Notes under the pieces: generated by a model
Database searches by the model: none
What the model saw: only the letters and a program-made list of their open reading frames with translations
Told to the model about the DNA's origin: nothing
Source of the DNA: a virus
IMG/VR virus record: IMGVR_UViG_3300020417_000549
Coordinates: 1 to 33,595 of that record
Reading direction: 5' to 3' (one strand)
DNA: 33,595 bases
In this document: piece after piece, positions 16,365 to 30,458 of the stretch
Position numbering within the stretch: the stretch's first letter is position 1
How the letters are laid out: each line of letters begins with the position of its first letter
Made by a program: the position numbers and the translations under genes

Positions 16365-17441
16365 TTATCCAATAGAAGGAGCAGTTAATGCAACTTTGGT
16401 AGTCTCGGCTGCAGCGAGATCGAGTGGGAAGTTATGAGCATTACGTTCATGCATAACTTCAAATCCAAGATTAGCACGGTTTAGAATATCTGCCCAAGTG
16501 TTAACCACTTGACCATTACGTGCAATGATTGATTGATTAAAATTAAAGCCATTCAAGTTGAAGGCCATAGTAGAGACACCAAGGCTAGTGAACCAGATGC
16601 CAAGAACAGGCCAAGCGGCCAGGAAGAAGTGAAGGCTACGGCTGTTATTAAAGCTAGCGTACTGAAAAATAAGCCGACCGAAATAACCGTGAGCTGCCAC
16701 GATGTTATACGTTTCTTCCTCTTGTCCAAATTTGTAGCCATAATTTAAAGAAACGGATTCAGTAGTTTCGCGAATAAGGCTCGACGTAACGAGTGATCCA
16801 TGCATGGCAGAAAAAAGAGCCCCGCCAAACACACCAGCCACTCCAAGCATATGAAAAGGATGCATGAGAATATTATGCTCAGCCTGGAATACCAACATGA
16901 AGTTGAATGTACCGGAGATCCCCAACGGCATCCCGTCAGAAAAAGAGCCTTGTCCAAACGGATATACCAAGAATACCGCTGAAGCTGCGGCGACTGGGGC
17001 AGAATATGCAACACAAATCCAAGGCCTCATTCCTAGTCGATAACTAAGTTCCCATTCTCGTCCCAGATACCCAAAGATACCAACCAGGAAGTGGAAGACG
17101 ACCAGTTGGTAAGGTCCACCGTTGTACAACCATTCGTCGAGTGTTGCGGCTTCCCAGATTGGGTAGAAATGTAGTCCGATTGCATTGGAACTTGGAACGA
17201 CTGCTCCACTGATAATGTTGTTTCCATAGAGTAGTGATCCTGCGACTGGTTCTCTGATGCCATCGATATCTACTGGGGGTGCTGCTACAAAAGCAGTGAT
17301 AAAACAAATAGTTGCTGCGAGGAGACACGGAATCATCAGTGTCCCAAACCATCCAACATATAGACGGTTCTCTGTGCTGGTAACCCACTCGCAGAAGGAG
17401 TTCCAGTTAGATTGTTTTTGTAAAATTGCGGTGTTTGCCAA
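16365..17441 (-). CDS. psbA: Photosystem II reaction centre protein D1
   Basis: This is a complete D1 protein of 358 residues, one residue shorter at the N-terminus than cyanobacterial D1. It has the conserved [51 protein letters not shown] and [20 protein letters not shown] blocks and the C-terminal [10 protein letters not shown] processing site, followed by a 15-residue extension. Residue 129 (D1 position 130) is Glu, as in high-light D1 forms. Phage D1 replaces the fast-turning host protein and keeps photosynthetic energy flowing during infection. The start codon is TTG, directly after the TAA of the upstream gene, with no clear Shine-Dalgarno sequence. No other Met codon is available before residue 36. 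The gene lies in the late virion module just before the capsid gene. Confidence 0.98.
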
Positions 17442-21623: not shown

Positions 21624-22314
21624 TTGAATGCTCAAAGAATGCAGGCATACGTGCTGACTTAGTAGCGACAAGTTCAGGTGCTTTACCCTGATACATTAAG
21701 TTGTCGCTGCAATCTAGCCAAAATTTTTTCGACAAATATCTATTGTCATTTGTATAAGACAGCGGTTGCATTACCCAGTTGATAGTTGCCTTGCGGAGTT
21801 TATCAAGACTAGGACTGATATCAAGCCCCAACTCCCTACAAACCAAACTATTGGCGCTAACATGAATTTGTTCATCTCTACTTATATCTGCTGAGGTTGT
21901 ACGCATTGCAGCGTCACCATTAAAGCGAAAGAATGGCAATAGTACAAAGAAAATTGCACGTTCGGCAACCATTGCTTTGAGTATCGTGTGATCTGGATGC
22001 GCAGTCCACGCATCTCTGAGCGCCAACGCTTCCTTCTCAGCCTTTTCATCAGTGCCGTAAGCATCGGCGATGAGACCAAGTGCCAAGTCGTGGTTCTCTT
22101 CATCCCGTACATTAGAGATGAGTAACTCTCGGGAGAGCTTCGGTACGTCAGTGGATAAAGCATCACGGATAAAATCTCCCACAGGTAGTTCCATGTGTCG
22201 CAATGAAAGCGCACGGAGAATCGTTGCCTCCGAGCCTTCTTTGCATGTACCAGCAGTTGGTTTTACTGGTGTCCATTTGCGCTTCCGCGCTAGTAGTTTT
22301 TGATAAGGGTTCAT
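21598..22314 (-). CDS. nrdB: Ribonucleotide reductase class I small (R2-like) subunit
   Basis: This 238-residue protein has the ferritin-like metal ligand pattern of R2 proteins: probable first ligand Glu42, then E72-x-x-H75 (DEENHD), Glu118 (AERAIFF) and E148-x-x-H151 (RDEQIHV). R2 generates the radical that NrdA uses to reduce ribonucleotides. The position four residues after the first His, which is the radical Tyr in E. coli R2, is Leu79 here. Radical generation would therefore need a Tyr-free mechanism such as those known from class Ic or Ie. The protein is short compared with E. coli R2 (376 aa). ATGA overlap with nrdA supports a functional pair. It is easily mistaken for a hypothetical gene because overall similarity to R2 is low. 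Confidence 0.85.
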   Translation of the reverse strand: MNPYQKLLARKRKWTPVKPTAGTCKEGSEATILRALSLRHMELPVGDFIRDALSTDVPKLSRELLISNVRDEENHDLALGLIADAYGTDEKAEKEALALRDAWTAHPDHTILKAMVAERAIFFVLLPFFRFNGDAAMRTTSADISRDEQIHVSANSLVCRELGLDISPSLDKLRKATINWVMQPLSYTNDNRYLSKKFWLDCSDNLMYQGKAPELVATKSARMPAFFEHSNVNLPQYA

Positions 22315-23693
22315 TCTGCACAGTCACATTGGGGTTCATTAGTTGCATCTCCCAAAATTGTGCTCAGGTAATCTTCTAAGTCAGCTCCATCAAGAGCAGC
22401 ATAGGCATCCGATTTATCCTGAACATCTCCCATAACTTGAAGGGAATAATAAAGAGATGTTTGTGGAGACCTAAGCCACTCTTCAATAAATTTCTCATCC
22501 ATTGTGACCATATCAGACCACCAATTAAATGAATACCCATGAAGAAGTCCACTGCGAGAGTACATCGTCATGATGCCATCCGCAACAGCTTTGTAGTTAT
22601 CCCATCCAACTTCAGATGCAATTTCTACTTCGCCATAATCATATGTTTTTACACCGAAAGTTCCTGAGTCACGATCAACACTTCGTGCAATAGGTGGTGC
22701 AATCTCAGGTGTACAAGTAAAGCCATCAGTATCTTCTGATCTGTAGCTGCATGATGCAGTAGGAGCAATAGCAAAAGCTCTAACCATATTATGAGCACGT
22801 GCTACTTGTGATGCTTTACTAATTCCAACAGCAAGTCTTGAAGCTAGTTCATAAGCTACAGTTGCCTTTGGAGTATTGTTATTATAGTGGTTTAAAGCTC
22901 GACCAAATTGTTCGTAGGTGACACCGTACCGCCGCAAGAGGTTTGCGAGACCCAGCACTCCAAGTCCAACTTGTCGATCTGTTTCTGGAGAGAGGTATTC
23001 TCCAGTCTCTCCAACACCTGTCTTACTATGTAAGTCACAAAGTTGTTGCATCCCTTGAATAAAAGCGTCTGGGATGTCGTCAAATGTACAGGCTCCAAGA
23101 TTAATATGTTGGAGCAAGCATGTTCCTCGGTGGGGCAAGTACACTTCAAGGCATACATTTCCACGGATTCTTTCTTTTCCTTCATACTTAACTTTGTTTA
23201 GCCAAACATCACCTGCTTTAATAGCTTGAAGTAATGCTTGTTTGTTTGTATCGGACATGTCATCCCACCACTCTTGAGTGATGTTGACACAACGTTTGAC
23301 CCATGGAAGTACATCTCTAGGTGCAGTTACAAAGTCATAAAGGTCAGCACAGTTTGCATCATAATGGAGGACTATTGCTCCGTTGCGGAATTTTCCCCCT
23401 CTGCGCAAAGTTTCATTAAGGATCGATAGGATTCGTCCAAATGATACAGGACCACTCGCAATGACGCCGCTTGCTCTCTCGTGGCCTTTGGGGTCAAGTT
23501 CTGATAAATGGACTGCAACTCCTGCTCCATATCGTAGAGCGTGGGAAGCAAACTTCCAACTTGCTTCAATTCCGTCTGTGCCTTCCATTTCGTTTCCACA
23601 AACGAAGACCGTGCATGATACTGGGAGTCTGCCATGGGGATCATCAATCCAATTTTGTACGCGCCCAGTGCGGGCAATTTTTCCTTTACTCAT
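22311..23693 (-). CDS. nrdA: Ribonucleotide reductase large subunit, compact class I type
   Basis: This 460-residue protein reduces ribonucleotides to deoxyribonucleotides for phage DNA synthesis. All active-site elements are visible: Cys27 (LPVSC) and Cys192 (GTCLLQHINLG) as the reducing pair, N179/C181/E183 (NVCLEV) with the thiyl radical Cys, the Tyr415-Tyr416 pair (SLYYSL) of the radical path, and C-terminal CDC (456, 458) for re-reduction. The Tyr pair and the adjacent nrdB show it to be class I rather than class II. The ATP-cone that regulates overall activity in E. coli NrdA is absent, so dATP shut-off is not expected. It overlaps the upstream MazG-like gene by ATGA. As I recall, the related P-SSP7 protein was first annotated as class II and later reassigned. 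Confidence 0.93.
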   Translation of the reverse strand: MSKGKIARTGRVQNWIDDPHGRLPVSCTVFVCGNEMEGTDGIEASWKFASHALRYGAGVAVHLSELDPKGHERASGVIASGPVSFGRILSILNETLRRGGKFRNGAIVLHYDANCADLYDFVTAPRDVLPWVKRCVNITQEWWDDMSDTNKQALLQAIKAGDVWLNKVKYEGKERIRGNVCLEVYLPHRGTCLLQHINLGACTFDDIPDAFIQGMQQLCDLHSKTGVGETGEYLSPETDRQVGLGVLGLANLLRRYGVTYEQFGRALNHYNNNTPKATVAYELASRLAVGISKASQVARAHNMVRAFAIAPTASCSYRSEDTDGFTCTPEIAPPIARSVDRDSGTFGVKTYDYGEVEIASEVGWDNYKAVADGIMTMYSRSGLLHGYSFNWWSDMVTMDEKFIEEWLRSPQTSLYYSLQVMGDVQDKSDAYAALDGADLEDYLSTILGDATNEPQCDCAE

Positions 23694-24037
23694 ACCAAAT
23701 CAGACAAATTAGGTGGTTGATAGTTTGGTCCTTTCAAGACCTTGCCGTCAGCACGGCGAATAGGTTTACCATCTAGTCCAAGCTTGGACATGTTTGATTT
23801 ATGGACACGATCAAGTGCTTCTTCTAGATCCCATCCCATGTTCTCAGAATATTGAAAGCAGACATAAACAAGATCTGCTAGTTCCTTTAATTCTTGTTCA
23901 TAACCTTCATTACCTTTAGCATAACAAAGTTCACTATATTCTTCAGCAATCAAATCTAATTGCATGGCCCGGTTGTCCTCACCATTCTGGATACCGTAAG
24001 CGGATCGGAACTGAATTGCTTGGTCCGATGGAGTCAT
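23690..24037 (-). CDS. MazG-like nucleotide pyrophosphohydrolase
   Basis: From the ATG at 24037 this gives 115 residues. The core AMQLDLIAEEYSELCYAKG, followed by ELKELADLVYVCFQYSENMG, has the EExxE and ExxD metal-binding pattern of the MazG/HisE superfamily. The C-terminal block HKSNMSKLGLDGKPIRRADG, with VLKGPNYQPPNL after it, is the form common in phage enzymes. Such proteins hydrolyse nucleoside triphosphates to monophosphates; in cyanophages a role in nucleotide pools is supposed. It sits directly before nrdA (ATGA overlap), which fits. An earlier ATG at 24061 is possible; the open frame to 24148 is mostly the DUF3310-like gene read in another frame. Confidence 0.82.
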   Translation of the reverse strand: MTPSDQAIQFRSAYGIQNGEDNRAMQLDLIAEEYSELCYAKGNEGYEQELKELADLVYVCFQYSENMGWDLEEALDRVHKSNMSKLGLDGKPIRRADGKVLKGPNYQPPNLSDLV

Positions 24038-24233
24038 TCTCGTTGCAGTTGTCAAGTTCATTTTTAAGGTAGTGGATAGCCTTTTTAAGGTCTTCTGTTT
24101 TCGTCGCAGTGCTTTTGTAGCCGGCTCTGCAAATATATTTAATAGCATTACCTAGGTGGTAATTAAGTTGTTGATCTCTAATAAAATCCCACGGTTCTAT
24201 ACTTCCTCTATCGTAGTGACTGGGACATTCCAT
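23979..24233 (-). CDS. DUF3310-like protein
   Basis: This 84-residue protein contains PSHYDRGSIEPWDFIRDQQL, then YHLGNAIKYICRAGYK and EDLKKAIHYLKNEL. This is the typical pattern of the small phage DUF3310 family, once called nucleotide kinase-like, which has no firmly known activity. The conserved part ends near residue 60; the last 24 residues overlap the MazG-like gene and look unconstrained. It overlaps the nblA-like gene by 37 bases at its start. Location among nucleotide metabolism genes agrees with a role there, without proof. Confidence 0.8.
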   Translation of the reverse strand: MECPSHYDRGSIEPWDFIRDQQLNYHLGNAIKYICRAGYKSTATKTEDLKKAIHYLKNELDNCNENDSIGPSNSVPIRLRYPEW

Positions 24234-24433
24234 GCTTTTAGAAGTTCAGAGATGTTGTTGGTTAAAATAAAATTAGTTTTTTGTAGATCAAGAAAGAGTG
24301 GAATCATTTCTTCTTTAGGACATTTATCTAAAAGATCACTCATCCTTCTCAATTTGAACTGTTGTTCCAGTGTTAGTTCTACTGTCGGCATCGGCGGGAG
24401 TCCATAATATGGGTCTGGAGTGTTCGAAGTCAT
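24197..24433 (-). CDS. nblA: NblA-like phycobilisome degradation adaptor
   Basis: From the ATG at 24433 this gives 78 residues; the internal ATG at 24391 gives 64, closer to the usual NblA length of about 60. The core VELTLEQQFKLRRMSDLL, then KEEMIPLFLDLQKTNFILTN and ISELLKAW, matches the NblA helix-turn-helix pattern (LSLEQQF-R... and a closing LLK-W). NblA binds phycobilisome rods and brings them to the Clp protease, releasing amino acids under starvation. nblA is known from freshwater Microcystis phages and from marine cyanophage sequences. The 5' end overlaps the exonuclease gene by up to 98 bases and the 3' end overlaps the DUF3310-like gene. The call rests on motif recognition, not on a search. 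Confidence 0.75.
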   Translation of the reverse strand: MTSNTPDPYYGLPPMPTVELTLEQQFKLRRMSDLLDKCPKEEMIPLFLDLQKTNFILTNNISELLKAWNVPVTTIEEV

Positions 24434-25106
24434 AATCGTTAGAGGTAAGTATCTTTGCAAGGCGTGCATTTTTTAAGGCATCATCCTCTGTGAGACCTTT
24501 TTGTTTAAACGCTTTGACTACACTATTCCAAGTGTACCCATTTTCGGAAAAAAATTTTGCGCTAGTTTTTACACCGAACCCTGGCGCTCCAGAGTATCCA
24601 TCAGTTTGATCGCCTGCAAGTGTTTGAATTAAAAACCATTGCCAAGCATCTATATGCGTGATTGTGAACACCTCATCCATGTTGTATAAGGTTCCAGGAA
24701 TTTGCTTCATGTCCTTATCAGGAGAGCAGATAACACAGTCCTCTTCAGAGGTTGCATAAACTCCCATGGCATCATCAGCTTCTAAATCAGGCATACGAAT
24801 TACACGATATTCATCATGTAATGCATGGATTACTCTTCTGTATCCGCAGGGTTTTTTACGATTTCGATGACCCTTATATGCTGGATCAACTTGTTTCCTA
24901 AAATTAGTAGAATCGGAAAAGAACAGAATGATATCAGGATCAAAAAATTCTCCCTTAATTCTATCGATGTCTCTAACAGTATTGGCATATGCTTCAGAGA
25001 ATTTAGATCCGACCATGATTACATCATCGCCCCAATCAATGTCATACTCTGCTGCAGCACAACTCTTGTAGACAATATAATCAGCGTCAATCAATAATGT
25101 TGTCAT
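24336..25106 (-). CDS. 5'-3' exonuclease, T7 gp6-like (FEN family)
   Basis: This 256-residue protein has the flap-endonuclease metal sites: LLIDADYIVY near the N-terminus, MPDLEADDAMG around residue 109, CVICSPDKDMKQIPG around residue 128 and AGDQTDGYSGAPGFGVK around 167 (the helix-hairpin-helix region). T7 gp6 removes RNA primers and degrades host DNA to feed phage replication. It is slightly shorter than T7 gp6 (300 aa). It follows the polymerase region with talC and a 40-aa gene inserted between, and overlaps that small gene by ATGA. Confidence 0.92.
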   Translation of the reverse strand: MTTLLIDADYIVYKSCAAAEYDIDWGDDVIMVGSKFSEAYANTVRDIDRIKGEFFDPDIILFFSDSTNFRKQVDPAYKGHRNRKKPCGYRRVIHALHDEYRVIRMPDLEADDAMGVYATSEEDCVICSPDKDMKQIPGTLYNMDEVFTITHIDAWQWFLIQTLAGDQTDGYSGAPGFGVKTSAKFFSENGYTWNSVVKAFKQKGLTEDDALKNARLAKILTSNDYDFEHSRPILWTPADADSRTNTGTTVQIEKDE

Positions 25107-25225
25107 TTACCTTGGCCTCTACTCATTTTCCTATTACCTTTCGGTCTAGATCTACGGCTTTGACCTTGAGTAGTTGTCTTCTTAATAGGTTTAATTTCTT
25201 TCTGATTTTTATTGTTGTACAGCAT
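25103..25225 (-). CDS. Small basic protein between talC and exonuclease
   Basis: A 40-residue frame starts at the ATG at 25225 (MLYNNKNQKEIKPIKKTTTQ) and continues GQSRRSRPKGNRKMSRGQGK. It overlaps the talC end by 17 bases and its TGA overlaps the exonuclease ATG (ATGA). It fills the only gap between these genes exactly. More than a third of residues are Lys or Arg and no acidic residue follows residue 10, so nucleic acid binding is plausible. I do not recognise a family. Confidence 0.6.
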   Translation of the reverse strand: MLYNNKNQKEIKPIKKTTTQGQSRRSRPKGNRKMSRGQGK

Positions 25226-25865
25226 TAAGCAGCCATTCCTGATAATCGTTTTCAAATATTTCTAGACCTTTATCGGTCAGTATATGGTCATACATTTGCC
25301 AAAATACTTTAGGTGGCATAGTGACAATATCAGCGCCATTGTAGAAACAACGAACTACACGTTGTGGTGTTCTAATAGATGCTGCCAATACTTTTGTGTC
25401 TGTTTTGTACCTGACTAAATCAGCTACGCTTCGGACTACTTCAGTACCTGCATACCCTTGATCATCAATACGACCAACGAATGGACTGACATATGTTGCA
25501 CCAGCTTTAGCTGCCAATATTGCCTGCGCTGAATTAAAGATAAGAGTTACATTAGTCTTGATTTTAAATTGACTGAAATGCTTACAAGCTAGTAATCCAT
25601 TTACAGTCATTGGTAGTTTAATGGTAGCCACACCTCCAAAGAGTTCGTGTAGTTCAGTACCATCATCAATCATTTTATTGAGAGATCCCATCACCTCCAT
25701 AGAGACGTCAGGGATATTCATTTGTTGTAGTTCTCGGTAGACATCATGGGGTTTTCTACCACTCTTCATGATTAGCGTGGGATTGGTGGTGACGCCTTCA
25801 ATCAACCCTGTCTCTTGACAGGCTGCGATTTCTGATACGTCAGCTGAATCAATAAAGATTTTCAT
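25209..25865 (-). CDS. talC: Transaldolase, TalC / fructose-6-phosphate aldolase-like
   Basis: This 218-residue enzyme of the small transaldolase type has the Schiff-base Lys83 (VATIKLPMT), Asp6 (FIDSAD), Asn28 (TTNPTL) and the NVTLIFN and TYVSPFVGRIDDQG blocks of the barrel. Cyanophage TalC shifts host carbon flux through the pentose phosphate pathway toward NADPH and ribose for nucleotide synthesis, which fits the nrdA/nrdB genes nearby. It lies in the replication module between DNA polymerase and exonuclease. In P-SSP7, as I recall, talC lies near the end of the genome. The ATG directly follows the polymerase stop. Confidence 0.96.
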   Translation of the reverse strand: MKIFIDSADVSEIAACQETGLIEGVTTNPTLIMKSGRKPHDVYRELQQMNIPDVSMEVMGSLNKMIDDGTELHELFGGVATIKLPMTVNGLLACKHFSQFKIKTNVTLIFNSAQAILAAKAGATYVSPFVGRIDDQGYAGTEVVRSVADLVRYKTDTKVLAASIRTPQRVVRCFYNGADIVTMPPKVFWQMYDHILTDKGLEIFENDYQEWLLNAVQQ

Positions 25866-27212
25866 TTAGTGTGTTTCGCTCCAGTTTTTTCCTTGTGTTG
25901 CTTCTGCGTCGATTCTGCATTTGAGTTTATAGAACTCGCCAGCTTCTGTAGCGCTAAGTACCAAGGATGAACATAAGTCTTTTGCATGATTAGGGTCTAC
26001 TTCAAATTGAAGTTCATCATGGATGAATCCCAATTGAGAGCAGCATAAATTTAATTCTTTAATGTGGTCTTGATTGATTACCAGCCAACGCTTAGCGACA
26101 ACTGACGCTCCTGACTGAAGCAAATAGTTCAGCGCTTTATGAGGTGAATCAACCTTAATTTTTCTTCCATCGATAGACTTGATGAACCCTCTTTCCGAAG
26201 CTTTCTTGATAGCTTGTAGTAAATCTCCCAATCCATCAATTGCTTCGATGTATGCTTTACGAATTTCCTTACCTTTTCGTTTAGCTGCGCTAGAAGAGAG
26301 TTGTTTGTCATAACTATGTCCGATTTTTTCATCTCCAGCTCCATACAAAAACGCGTACGAAATTGTCTTAATAGCTGATCTTGAGACACCCACCTTGTCT
26401 GCATTTACTTGGTGGATGTCCCCATTGAGGAGGATGTTGGCATAACGTCCCTCGTCGTAACGAGATAAATAGTGGCTAAGCATCCGAAGCTCAATCCCAG
26501 AAAGATCAGCGCCGACCATGCATAAGCCTGGAGTTGGGATAAAGAGTGCTCTAAATCTTCCATCGCTGGGGACTTGCGCCAAGTTCGGTGATCGGTGCGC
26601 ACACCTGTGTGTAGACGTTGCGACACTACAGTGATGATGTATCCGGTCATTCGTAGATAGCTTGAGCCATGCGTTGACGCCTTCGGAGATCATCCCCAAT
26701 TTCTTCGTAATATCTAGACATCTCATGAAATCCGAAGCAATCTTCGGTCCACCTGATGCAATTATCTCCTTCAGTACAACTTCGTCGATAATCGGCTTCC
26801 CAGTAGGTGTCAGATGTTTCGGATTCCAACCATGATATGTTTGCAGGATCCATGAAATATGATCTCGTGATGTGCAATTTAGTTCTTTGAGTCTTTGAAA
26901 TGTTGACCCTTTGATATACCCCGAAGACTTGTTATCTCGTTTTGGAGTGAACGTAGCTCCGGCGACGTAAGGGTGTCTCCTCTGAAGTACATTTTCAGTC
27001 TCTCGTAATTCGTCGCGGAGAGCCGATGCAAGTTCCCATGCAGCTCTTTCATCGAAATGCCATCCATGTATTTCTTGTTTGGTGAGTATGTTTGCTACCT
27101 GATGCTCTAACGAGACCCACTCAGGTAAGGTTGAAAGTGTTTCCAAAGTTTGGTGGTTACAATTACATCTTGTTTGCAATAATCTTCCATTGGTTGTGAC
27201 CACTCTTTCCAA
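25866..27212 (-). CDS. DNA polymerase A, polymerase domain (T7 gp5-like), separate frame
   Basis: This frame holds the whole polymerase part: motif A MVGADLSGIELRMLSHYL, motif B RSAIKTISYAFLYGAGDEKIG, motif C GFIHDELQFEVD and the C-terminal GKNWSETH. The three motifs carry the catalytic Asp, Lys/Tyr and Asp. Protein similarity to T7-like polymerases begins only about residue 31 (EWVSLEHQVANILTKQEIHG); the earlier residues are the exonuclease-domain DNA read out of frame. The frame opens with TTG at 27212 but has no convincing start or Shine-Dalgarno sequence. It is offset by -1 from the exonuclease frame, which continues to 27107. It is best read as the second half of one polymerase gene. Confidence 0.9.
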   Translation of the reverse strand: MERVVTTNGRLLQTRCNCNHQTLETLSTLPEWVSLEHQVANILTKQEIHGWHFDERAAWELASALRDELRETENVLQRRHPYVAGATFTPKRDNKSSGYIKGSTFQRLKELNCTSRDHISWILQTYHGWNPKHLTPTGKPIIDEVVLKEIIASGGPKIASDFMRCLDITKKLGMISEGVNAWLKLSTNDRIHHHCSVATSTHRCAHRSPNLAQVPSDGRFRALFIPTPGLCMVGADLSGIELRMLSHYLSRYDEGRYANILLNGDIHQVNADKVGVSRSAIKTISYAFLYGAGDEKIGHSYDKQLSSSAAKRKGKEIRKAYIEAIDGLGDLLQAIKKASERGFIKSIDGRKIKVDSPHKALNYLLQSGASVVAKRWLVINQDHIKELNLCCSQLGFIHDELQFEVDPNHAKDLCSSLVLSATEAGEFYKLKCRIDAEATQGKNWSETH

Positions 27213-27625
27213 TCAGTATCTTTACCAAATGAACCTTTAAATTCACCTAGCCTGTAACCATATGATTCGAGTGAGTGTCTACCATATAATTGCAATGGCA
27301 TGTTTTTCCACTCATGTTTTTTATCCAATTTGATCATATCGCTATGATACAATCTAGACAAAATTAAGGTATCAATAACTAACGGTGGATCTTCAAACCA
27401 AGGGTATAGTTTTTTGATGCAAGGTAGGTCATATCCTATTATGTTATGGCCCATGATGCAGTCAGCATCTTGAAGCATTTGAATGCCACGTATAATAGGT
27501 TCTTCCTTACCTTCATCATTAAATGTGTAAGTTTCGTTTTTATTTAGGTCATAAATAACAAGACAATGAATTGTTGATACAGTGTTTAGTAACCCATTAG
27601 TTTCTAGGTCAAAGACCAGACTCAT
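27107..27625 (-). CDS. DNA polymerase A, 3'-5' exonuclease domain, separate frame
   Basis: From the ATG at 27625 this gives 172 residues with all three proofreading motifs: SLVFDLETNGLL (Exo I), CIMGHNIIGYDLP (Exo II) and DYCKQDVIVT (Exo III). The frame then runs 16 residues further and stops, while similarity continues in the -1 frame. One extra T in the TTT at 27134-27136 would join KLWKHF to STLPEWVSLEHQ and give a polymerase of about 600 residues. The ATG overlaps the TGA of the 41-aa gene upstream (ATGA), which supports this start over the ATG at 27637. Confidence 0.92.
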   Translation of the reverse strand: MSLVFDLETNGLLNTVSTIHCLVIYDLNKNETYTFNDEGKEEPIIRGIQMLQDADCIMGHNIIGYDLPCIKKLYPWFEDPPLVIDTLILSRLYHSDMIKLDKKHEWKNMPLQLYGRHSLESYGYRLGEFKGSFGKDTDWKEWSQPMEDYCKQDVIVTTKLWKHFQPYLSGSR

Positions 27626-27747
27626 TTCTGTTTCCATACATAGGTCTTGTCAACAAACTGTGCACGCTTAATAGCTTCAGCAGTCGGTGGATTAGGTCGT
27701 TTCAATTCTGTTATGTATTCAGAAATCTTCTGGGTTGAATTCTTCAT
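27622..27747 (-). CDS. Small protein between primase-helicase and DNA polymerase
   Basis: A 41-residue frame starts at the ATG at 27747 (MKNSTQKISEYITELKRPNP, then PTAEAIKRAQFVDKTYVWKQ). It overlaps the primase-helicase end by 29 bases and the polymerase start by ATGA, and covers the otherwise empty 93-base gap. The composition is that of a normal short helical protein. I do not recognise a family. No strong Shine-Dalgarno sequence is visible. Confidence 0.6.
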   Translation of the reverse strand: MKNSTQKISEYITELKRPNPPTAEAIKRAQFVDKTYVWKQK

Positions 27748-29715: not shown

Positions 29716-30267
29716 CTATGCGTATTTGTTCATTAGGCTGATTAGCTTCTGTGGATAGACAGGATCTGTTGCATACCCTTCATTCTTCAAATGATATGCT
29801 GCATAATCTCTATCTTTGGCTGAGTTACAACCAATGTATCCTTGATAATCCTTATACCATTTAGTTACCAACTCATTGATACAATCAAATGGTGTGTCAA
29901 AATCTTTGAATTCATCTAGTATTGTAACTGGCCCATTGCCATAGTCTTCCCATGTCTTTTGGACTGTTCCCTTACCTTTGATTCCAAAGAAGTTATTCTT
30001 ACCAGATACATGTTGACCCCATCCACTTTCCAATGCCCATTGGGCACAAACTAATTCTGGATACTTAGCGCCGGCTGCATTGGCTAGCTTGTAGACACTC
30101 TCCCAATCATTAGTGAACTCATTGGTTTCTGAATTGTTTCGGTAAAGCCTAGCAAATTCTGATAAGACTTCATCACTACAGCAGTTTTGTAACCAAGCAA
30201 ATGCATCACGTTGGTGTGGCAAATCCTTGTAGTAGTTTGCTGCATCGACAAGATTAATAGCAGGCAT
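29716..30267 (-). CDS. GH73-type lysin (glucosaminidase-like endolysin)
   Basis: From the ATG at 30267 this gives 183 residues. Residues about 1-45 contain YYKDLPHQRDAFAWLQ, a short helical motif I associate with cell-wall enzymes of cyanobacteria and their phages. Residues about 70-180 form a GH73 domain: CAQWALESGWG with the likely catalytic Glu80, KNNFFGIKG, and at the end GYATDPVYPQK. GH73 enzymes cleave the glycan strands of peptidoglycan. T7 has an amidase lysozyme (gp3.5) on the far side of gene 3, so this phage uses an unrelated enzyme in a similar position. The domain is related to the one in the virion protein at 5868-9119. The ATG overlaps the hli stop (TGATG). Confidence 0.88.
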   Translation of the reverse strand: MPAINLVDAANYYKDLPHQRDAFAWLQNCCSDEVLSEFARLYRNNSETNEFTNDWESVYKLANAAGAKYPELVCAQWALESGWGQHVSGKNNFFGIKGKGTVQKTWEDYGNGPVTILDEFKDFDTPFDCINELVTKWYKDYQGYIGCNSAKDRDYAAYHLKNEGYATDPVYPQKLISLMNKYA

Positions 30268-30458
30268 CACCAGACACCTGGGATAACCTGTCCTGTCAGT
30301 GCATAAGCACCTAAAACTGCAATGACGCCAATCATTGCAACCCTACCATTGAGTTTTTCAGCTTTTTCGTTGTGTGTTTCGTTAACTTCCATAATTACCA
30401 TTGGTGGTTCTTTTGCATAGAGGTTCATACGACCTTTGTCTTCAATTACTGTTGTCAT
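30267..30458 (-). CDS. hli: High-light-inducible protein (HLIP)
   Basis: This 63-residue protein ends in AEKLNGRVAMIGVIAVLGAYALTG, the single chlorophyll a/b-binding-type transmembrane helix of HLIPs with the ExxNGRxAMIG signature. HLIPs bind chlorophyll and protect photosystem II during assembly and high light; phage copies are thought to support photosynthesis with the phage D1. It lies between SSB and the lysin, far from psbA, so it should be expressed with the early replication genes. In P-SSP7 hli and psbA are neighbours. It could also start at the second Met, residue 11. Confidence 0.95.
   Translation of the reverse strand: MTTVIEDKGRMNLYAKEPPMVIMEVNETHNEKAEKLNGRVAMIGVIAVLGAYALTGQVIPGVW

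Follow-up and report, generated by a model that had tools for sequence, protein, structure and literature searches.

An NblA family gene in a T7-like cyanophage lineage known from metagenomic contigs

NblA is an adaptor of the ClpC chaperone with a helix-loop-helix fold (PMC7966870), in which the EQ-F motif serves the ClpC side and a C-terminal motif the phycobiliprotein side (PMC4103541). According to PMC9602691, 14 isolated cyanopodoviruses were predicted to carry nblA by Nadel et al. 2019, expression of a marine phage NblA in Synechococcus elongatus led to pigment loss, and marine NblA copies are phylogenetically distant from freshwater ones. Effects of viral NblA on oceanic photosynthesis and light capture are reported by Nadel 2025 in Nature, as cited in PMC12892361 (also cited in PMC13386980). 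The gene described here had been put forward from sequence as a candidate for a little-described host-takeover function, a view that the published work does not support, as it covers both cyanopodovirus nblA and its oceanic effect.

NblA family membership and predicted fold

We detected a minus-strand open reading frame of 78 amino acids at 24433..24197 (MTSNTPDPYYGLPPMPTVELTLEQQFKLRRMSDLLDKCPKEEMIPLFLDLQKTNFILTNNISELLKAWNVPVTTIEEV) in the window, by which we mean the whole 33,595-base virus record that was analysed. The original prediction of an NblA-like gene at these positions held up: the frame carries the LTLEQQF and LLKAW motifs, and its match to Pfam NblA exceeds the cut-off (PF04485, 30.8 bits against a gathering score of 25, E 3.9e-7), with no other NblA match in the record. 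The gene and its parts are as follows.

24197..24433, minus strand: nblA, 78 amino acids, with a Pfam NblA match above the gathering score and purifying selection
About 24379-24236, minus strand: NblA core, protein residues 19-66, part of nblA
24336..24433, minus strand: stretch shared by nblA codons 1-33 and, in a different frame, the 3' end of the exonuclease gene, from the ORF list and also seen in relatives

Among the aligned phage relatives, 28 of 31 match Pfam NblA at E <= 0.01, and a profile built from all 31 found only four significant matches in the PDB, each of them named NblA: 3cs5 (2e-8), 2q8v (2.1e-5), 1ojh (2.1e-5), and 2qdo (7.4e-5). Residues E23, Q24, F26, and W68 are invariant in these relatives and L64 is nearly so, and both the N-terminal EQ-F motif and the C-terminal motif of NblA are present in the window's protein. 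The NCBIfam NblA equivalog NF045916 was the best family in that library at 29 bits against a cut-off of 100, a stricter, name-giving threshold that is not required for Pfam family membership, and this score marks the protein as a divergent member of the family. A tblastn search gave a weak match (E about 0.02) to NblA as annotated in Microcystis phages, with 37% identity over 64 residues. Matches to TetR_C_2 and AcrR-type families were weak, fell below their own cut-offs, and were rejected.

An AlphaFold2 monomer was predicted as a two-helix hairpin, with helices at residues 22-35 and 40-67 and block-mean pLDDT of 91-97 in the core, which is the helix-loop-helix form expected of NblA (about 60 residues) and agrees with the fold that had been anticipated. 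Searches of the PDB with the 78-residue hairpin model returned no chain in Foldseek and no rows in VIA-align, two methods that say little about so short a hairpin. The two-helix fold is simple, the gene sits within a DNA-replication and nucleotide block, and its family is listed as PHROG 27006 with function unknown, all of which would suit an unrelated small phage protein, such as a DNA-metabolism accessory, that came to resemble NblA by convergence. Such convergence is very improbable given that the sequence-profile matches to NblA are significant and specific and that the N-terminal LPP-P and EQQF align with solved NblA.

Reading frame, start and selection

Relatives of the gene are carried by 55 IMG/VR loci in which the frame is kept, close relatives included; this conservation, together with the E value of the Pfam match, rules out a chance match. 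In most relatives the start leaves 21-22 residues ahead of the EQ-F motif (14, 17, 18, 19, or 28 in some), and a G-x-P-P-x-P stretch near the N-terminus is conserved, and the LPPMP of the window's protein aligns with the LPPLP of the solved NblA 3cs5. The original prediction had preferred a start at 24391, which would give the classical NblA length, but many relatives lack a methionine at that position. The shared upstream start, the conserved stretch, and the alignment to 3cs5 place the start almost certainly at 24433.

Because of the overlap, conservation in codons 1-33 could come from the exonuclease frame, and selection was measured in codons 34-78 (45 codons), which lie outside the exonuclease gene. 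Comparisons of the window with all of its clade relatives but the closest (L002) gave pS of 0.43-0.84 against pN of 0.16-0.27, and neither of the other two frames of the same DNA held a comparable excess of synonymous change, so the nblA frame is translated and selected. We weighed these values against the chance that the frame is spurious and stays open only through the overlap, as might be supposed from the 33 of 78 codons shared with the exonuclease gene and from the public record of the cultured phage S-TIP37, where the nblA stretch (L083 12562-12790) is unannotated. Strong purifying selection over the 45 non-overlapping codons, in the nblA frame only, and a frame kept over 55 contigs leave that reading practically no chance, and by these sequence comparisons it is already refuted. 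The gene is nonetheless easily missed, as it overlaps the exonuclease gene and goes unannotated in some records.

Genome context and distribution

The window belongs to a T7-like cyanophage (Autographiviridae), with genes for a T7-type RNA polymerase, primase-helicase, connector, capsid, and tail tube and Pfam matches to RNA_pol, DnaB_C with a primase zinc ribbon, Head-tail_con, and Gp10A-like. As had been predicted, this phage also encodes D1 and a high-light-inducible protein (HLIP), the latter from an ORF that had no Pfam match at 0.001 and was identified through PHROG. No tRNA was found in the window. The genes around nblA and the two photosynthesis genes are listed here.

24336..25106, minus strand: T7-like 5'-3' exonuclease, upstream neighbour (Pfam 5_3_exonuc_N; 64% identity to the S-TIP37 exonuclease)
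23979..24233, minus strand: downstream neighbour, a DUF3310 protein to which phage records give the name "nucleotide kinase" (PF11753, 58.2 bits; synteny)
23690..24049, minus strand: MazG-like pyrophosphohydrolase, downstream (Pfam PRA-PH and MazG-like; synteny)
22311..23693, minus strand: ribonucleotide reductase alpha subunit (Pfam Ribonuc_red_lgC)
16365..17441, minus strand: psbA, photosystem II D1 (Pfam Photo_RC, 294.8 bits)
30267..30458, minus strand: hli, high-light-inducible protein (PHROG 178, E 4.7e-27)

Several other features of the locus were noted. A transaldolase gene (talC) lies at 25209-25865, between the DNA polymerase and exonuclease genes, and among the related loci an exonuclease-adjacent transaldolase occurs only in L005, L006, and L030. 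The DNA polymerase (25866-27637) is read from two overlapping ORFs (27637-27107 and 27212-25866); it is also divided in P-SSP7 and S-TIP37, and in the records of these two phages either a programmed frameshift or a split protein is suggested. The window's psbA is placed near the capsid gene, unlike a psbA fragment in the close relative L011 (2-463) that ends right before endonuclease I and primase-helicase.

The order exonuclease, nblA, DUF3310, MazG, ribonucleotide reductase is kept in nearly all T7-like loci with nblA. Among cultured phages, the gene is present in S-TIP37, S-SBP1, S-CBP1, S-CBP3, S-CBP4, S-B28, KBS-P-1A, S-RIP2, S-SRP01, and DSL-LC07, and it was not found in the exonuclease neighbourhood of P-SSP10, 9515-10a, SS120-1, S-TIP28, S-CBP42, Syn5, and P60. 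In S-RIP1 (L082 1387-1796) the homologue is split over two frames, through a frameshift or a sequencing error. The combination of nblA with psbA and hli, whose novelty the original prediction had suggested, is not new, because the cultured T7-like phage S-TIP37 carries all three. Besides the S-TIP37 record, a 2017 survey table also leaves out nblA, listing just hli and psbA for the P-GSP1 group (PMC5332604).

In an exonuclease tree the window groups, with full support, with metagenomic contigs in a clade that has no cultured member among the phages compared. The window's nblA is a new sequence of a kind known from many T7-like marine cyanophages, and it adds a copy from a clade without cultured isolates among the records searched. 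A scan of genome contigs for a host source identified no host donor: apart from one Pleurocapsales NblA, it returned just two contigs, both with the gene order of the phages. An NblA with EQQF that is 41% identical was also seen at L056 4968-5222 (and in L052-L055), where it is flanked by HNH endonuclease-like and terminase-like ORFs on a 125 kb viral contig; nblA is therefore present in an unrelated phage type as well. Since viral NblA is reported to lower oceanic light capture (Nadel 2025, cited in PMC12892361), the spread of nblA matters for marine productivity.

Proposed function, host and comparison with known NblA

We suggest that the ORF is very probably the phage nblA of a T7-like cyanophage lineage, acting as a Clp adaptor for antenna proteins. 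By analogy with the family and its literature, NblA would be made during infection and dimerise into a four-helix bundle, its C-terminal helix would bind phycobilisome proteins while its conserved N-terminal motif bound the host ClpC chaperone, and antenna proteins would thereby be delivered to the host Clp protease. The resulting antenna loss would reduce light harvesting and could free amino acids for phage proteins, to the benefit of the phage; amino-acid harvesting from the antenna is plausible, and the phage's own D1 and HLIP may meanwhile keep photosystem II running. The 2025 study by Nadel reportedly also describes the loss of other host proteins.

Homologues of nblA occupy the same slot in the Prochlorococcus phages P-SSP7, P-SSP3, NATL1A-7, and, weakly, P-GSP1, as well as in a Prochlorococcus single-cell contig, whose copy is predicted as a hairpin with moderate confidence. 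These homologues carry the motif TKLTxEQDL/F (HQDL in P-GSP1) against VELTLEQQF in the window, and Pfam NblA matched none of the Prochlorococcus-phage copies tested.

L067 1568-1879: P-SSP7 PSSP7_019A, nblA homologue in the same slot, with changed EQDL/TKLT and no Pfam match
L072 1568-1876, L058 2995-3276, and L060 3001-3303: nblA homologues of Prochlorococcus phages or a Prochlorococcus single-cell contig in the same slot, with changed EQDL/TKLT and no Pfam match

Outside the exonuclease overlap, in a stretch partly shared with DUF3310, P-SSP7 and P-SSP3 differ by 16 synonymous changes and a single nonsynonymous one, and on these counts selection on this pair is strongly purifying. The link between EQDL and host is not clean, because the Synechococcus phages S-B28, S-SBP1, and S-RIP1 share the change; the P-SSP2 copy is identical to that of P-SSP3, and the P-SSP2 record names a Synechococcus host. 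Prochlorococcus does not use phycobilisomes (PMC7439483), and the copies in its phages raise the testable question of what role an antenna-degradation adaptor has in a host that lacks this antenna.

The nearest cultured relatives of the window infect Synechococcus, which fits the phycobilisome-bearing host of the original prediction, but the same-slot homologues in Prochlorococcus phages leave that host weakly supported and imply that nblA is not strictly tied to phycobilisomes. The window's psbA is not decisive for the host, matching a Synechococcus phage at 77% and a Prochlorococcus phage at 72%. The GC content of the window (41%) is near that of the Prochlorococcus-phage loci, and same-clade relatives reach 45-46%.

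The Prochlorococcus-phage copies also bear on the target of the adaptor. An NblA-derived adaptor might have kept its Clp-facing part while bringing mainly proteins other than the phycobilisome to the protease; the recurrence of the gene in the same slot of those phages, under constraint between P-SSP7 and P-SSP3 despite the missing Pfam match, would fit this. For the window's gene such a main target is unlikely, since its copy, in contrast to those of the Prochlorococcus phages, scores above the Pfam cut-off and retains both canonical motifs, VELTLEQQF and LLKAW, and since its nearest cultured relatives have Synechococcus hosts. As a tentative possibility for the lineage at large, the NblA fold may serve as a general adaptor that sends non-phycobilisome host proteins to the Clp protease. 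If so, the copies in Prochlorococcus phages, with their changed motifs and purifying selection, would be its clearest form because their hosts are without phycobilisomes, and the copy in the window would stand in between, still handling the antenna.

The window's protein can be set beside four known groups of NblA proteins and homologues. It has in common with cyanobacterial NblA (3cs5, 2q8v, 1ojh, 2qdo) the helix-loop-helix and N-terminal EQ-F, with an LPP-P start like that of 3cs5 and, as 1ojh has, an LLK close to the C-terminus; it differs in being phage-encoded, in its longer N- and C-terminal tails, and in falling below the NCBIfam equivalog cut-off. The NblA of the Microcystis phages Ma-LMM01 and MaMV-DC is likewise phage-carried and is the 37% match described above, but these are large freshwater phages unrelated to the window phage. 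The Prochlorococcus-phage homologues (P-SSP7 PSSP7_019A, P-SSP3, and NATL1A-7) share its slot, and PHROG 27006 also covers P-SSP7, whereas their EQQF has become EQDL or EQDF, their VELT has become TKLT, and Pfam NblA does not match them. Closest are the nblA genes of cultured T7-like cyanophages, with S-TIP37 (51%) and S-RIP2/KBS-P-1A (52%) nearest to the window: they share the slot between exonuclease and DUF3310/MazG/RNR, the length, the EQ-F motif, and the C-terminal helix, while about half of the residues differ and the window belongs to a separate clade seen in metagenomic contigs only.
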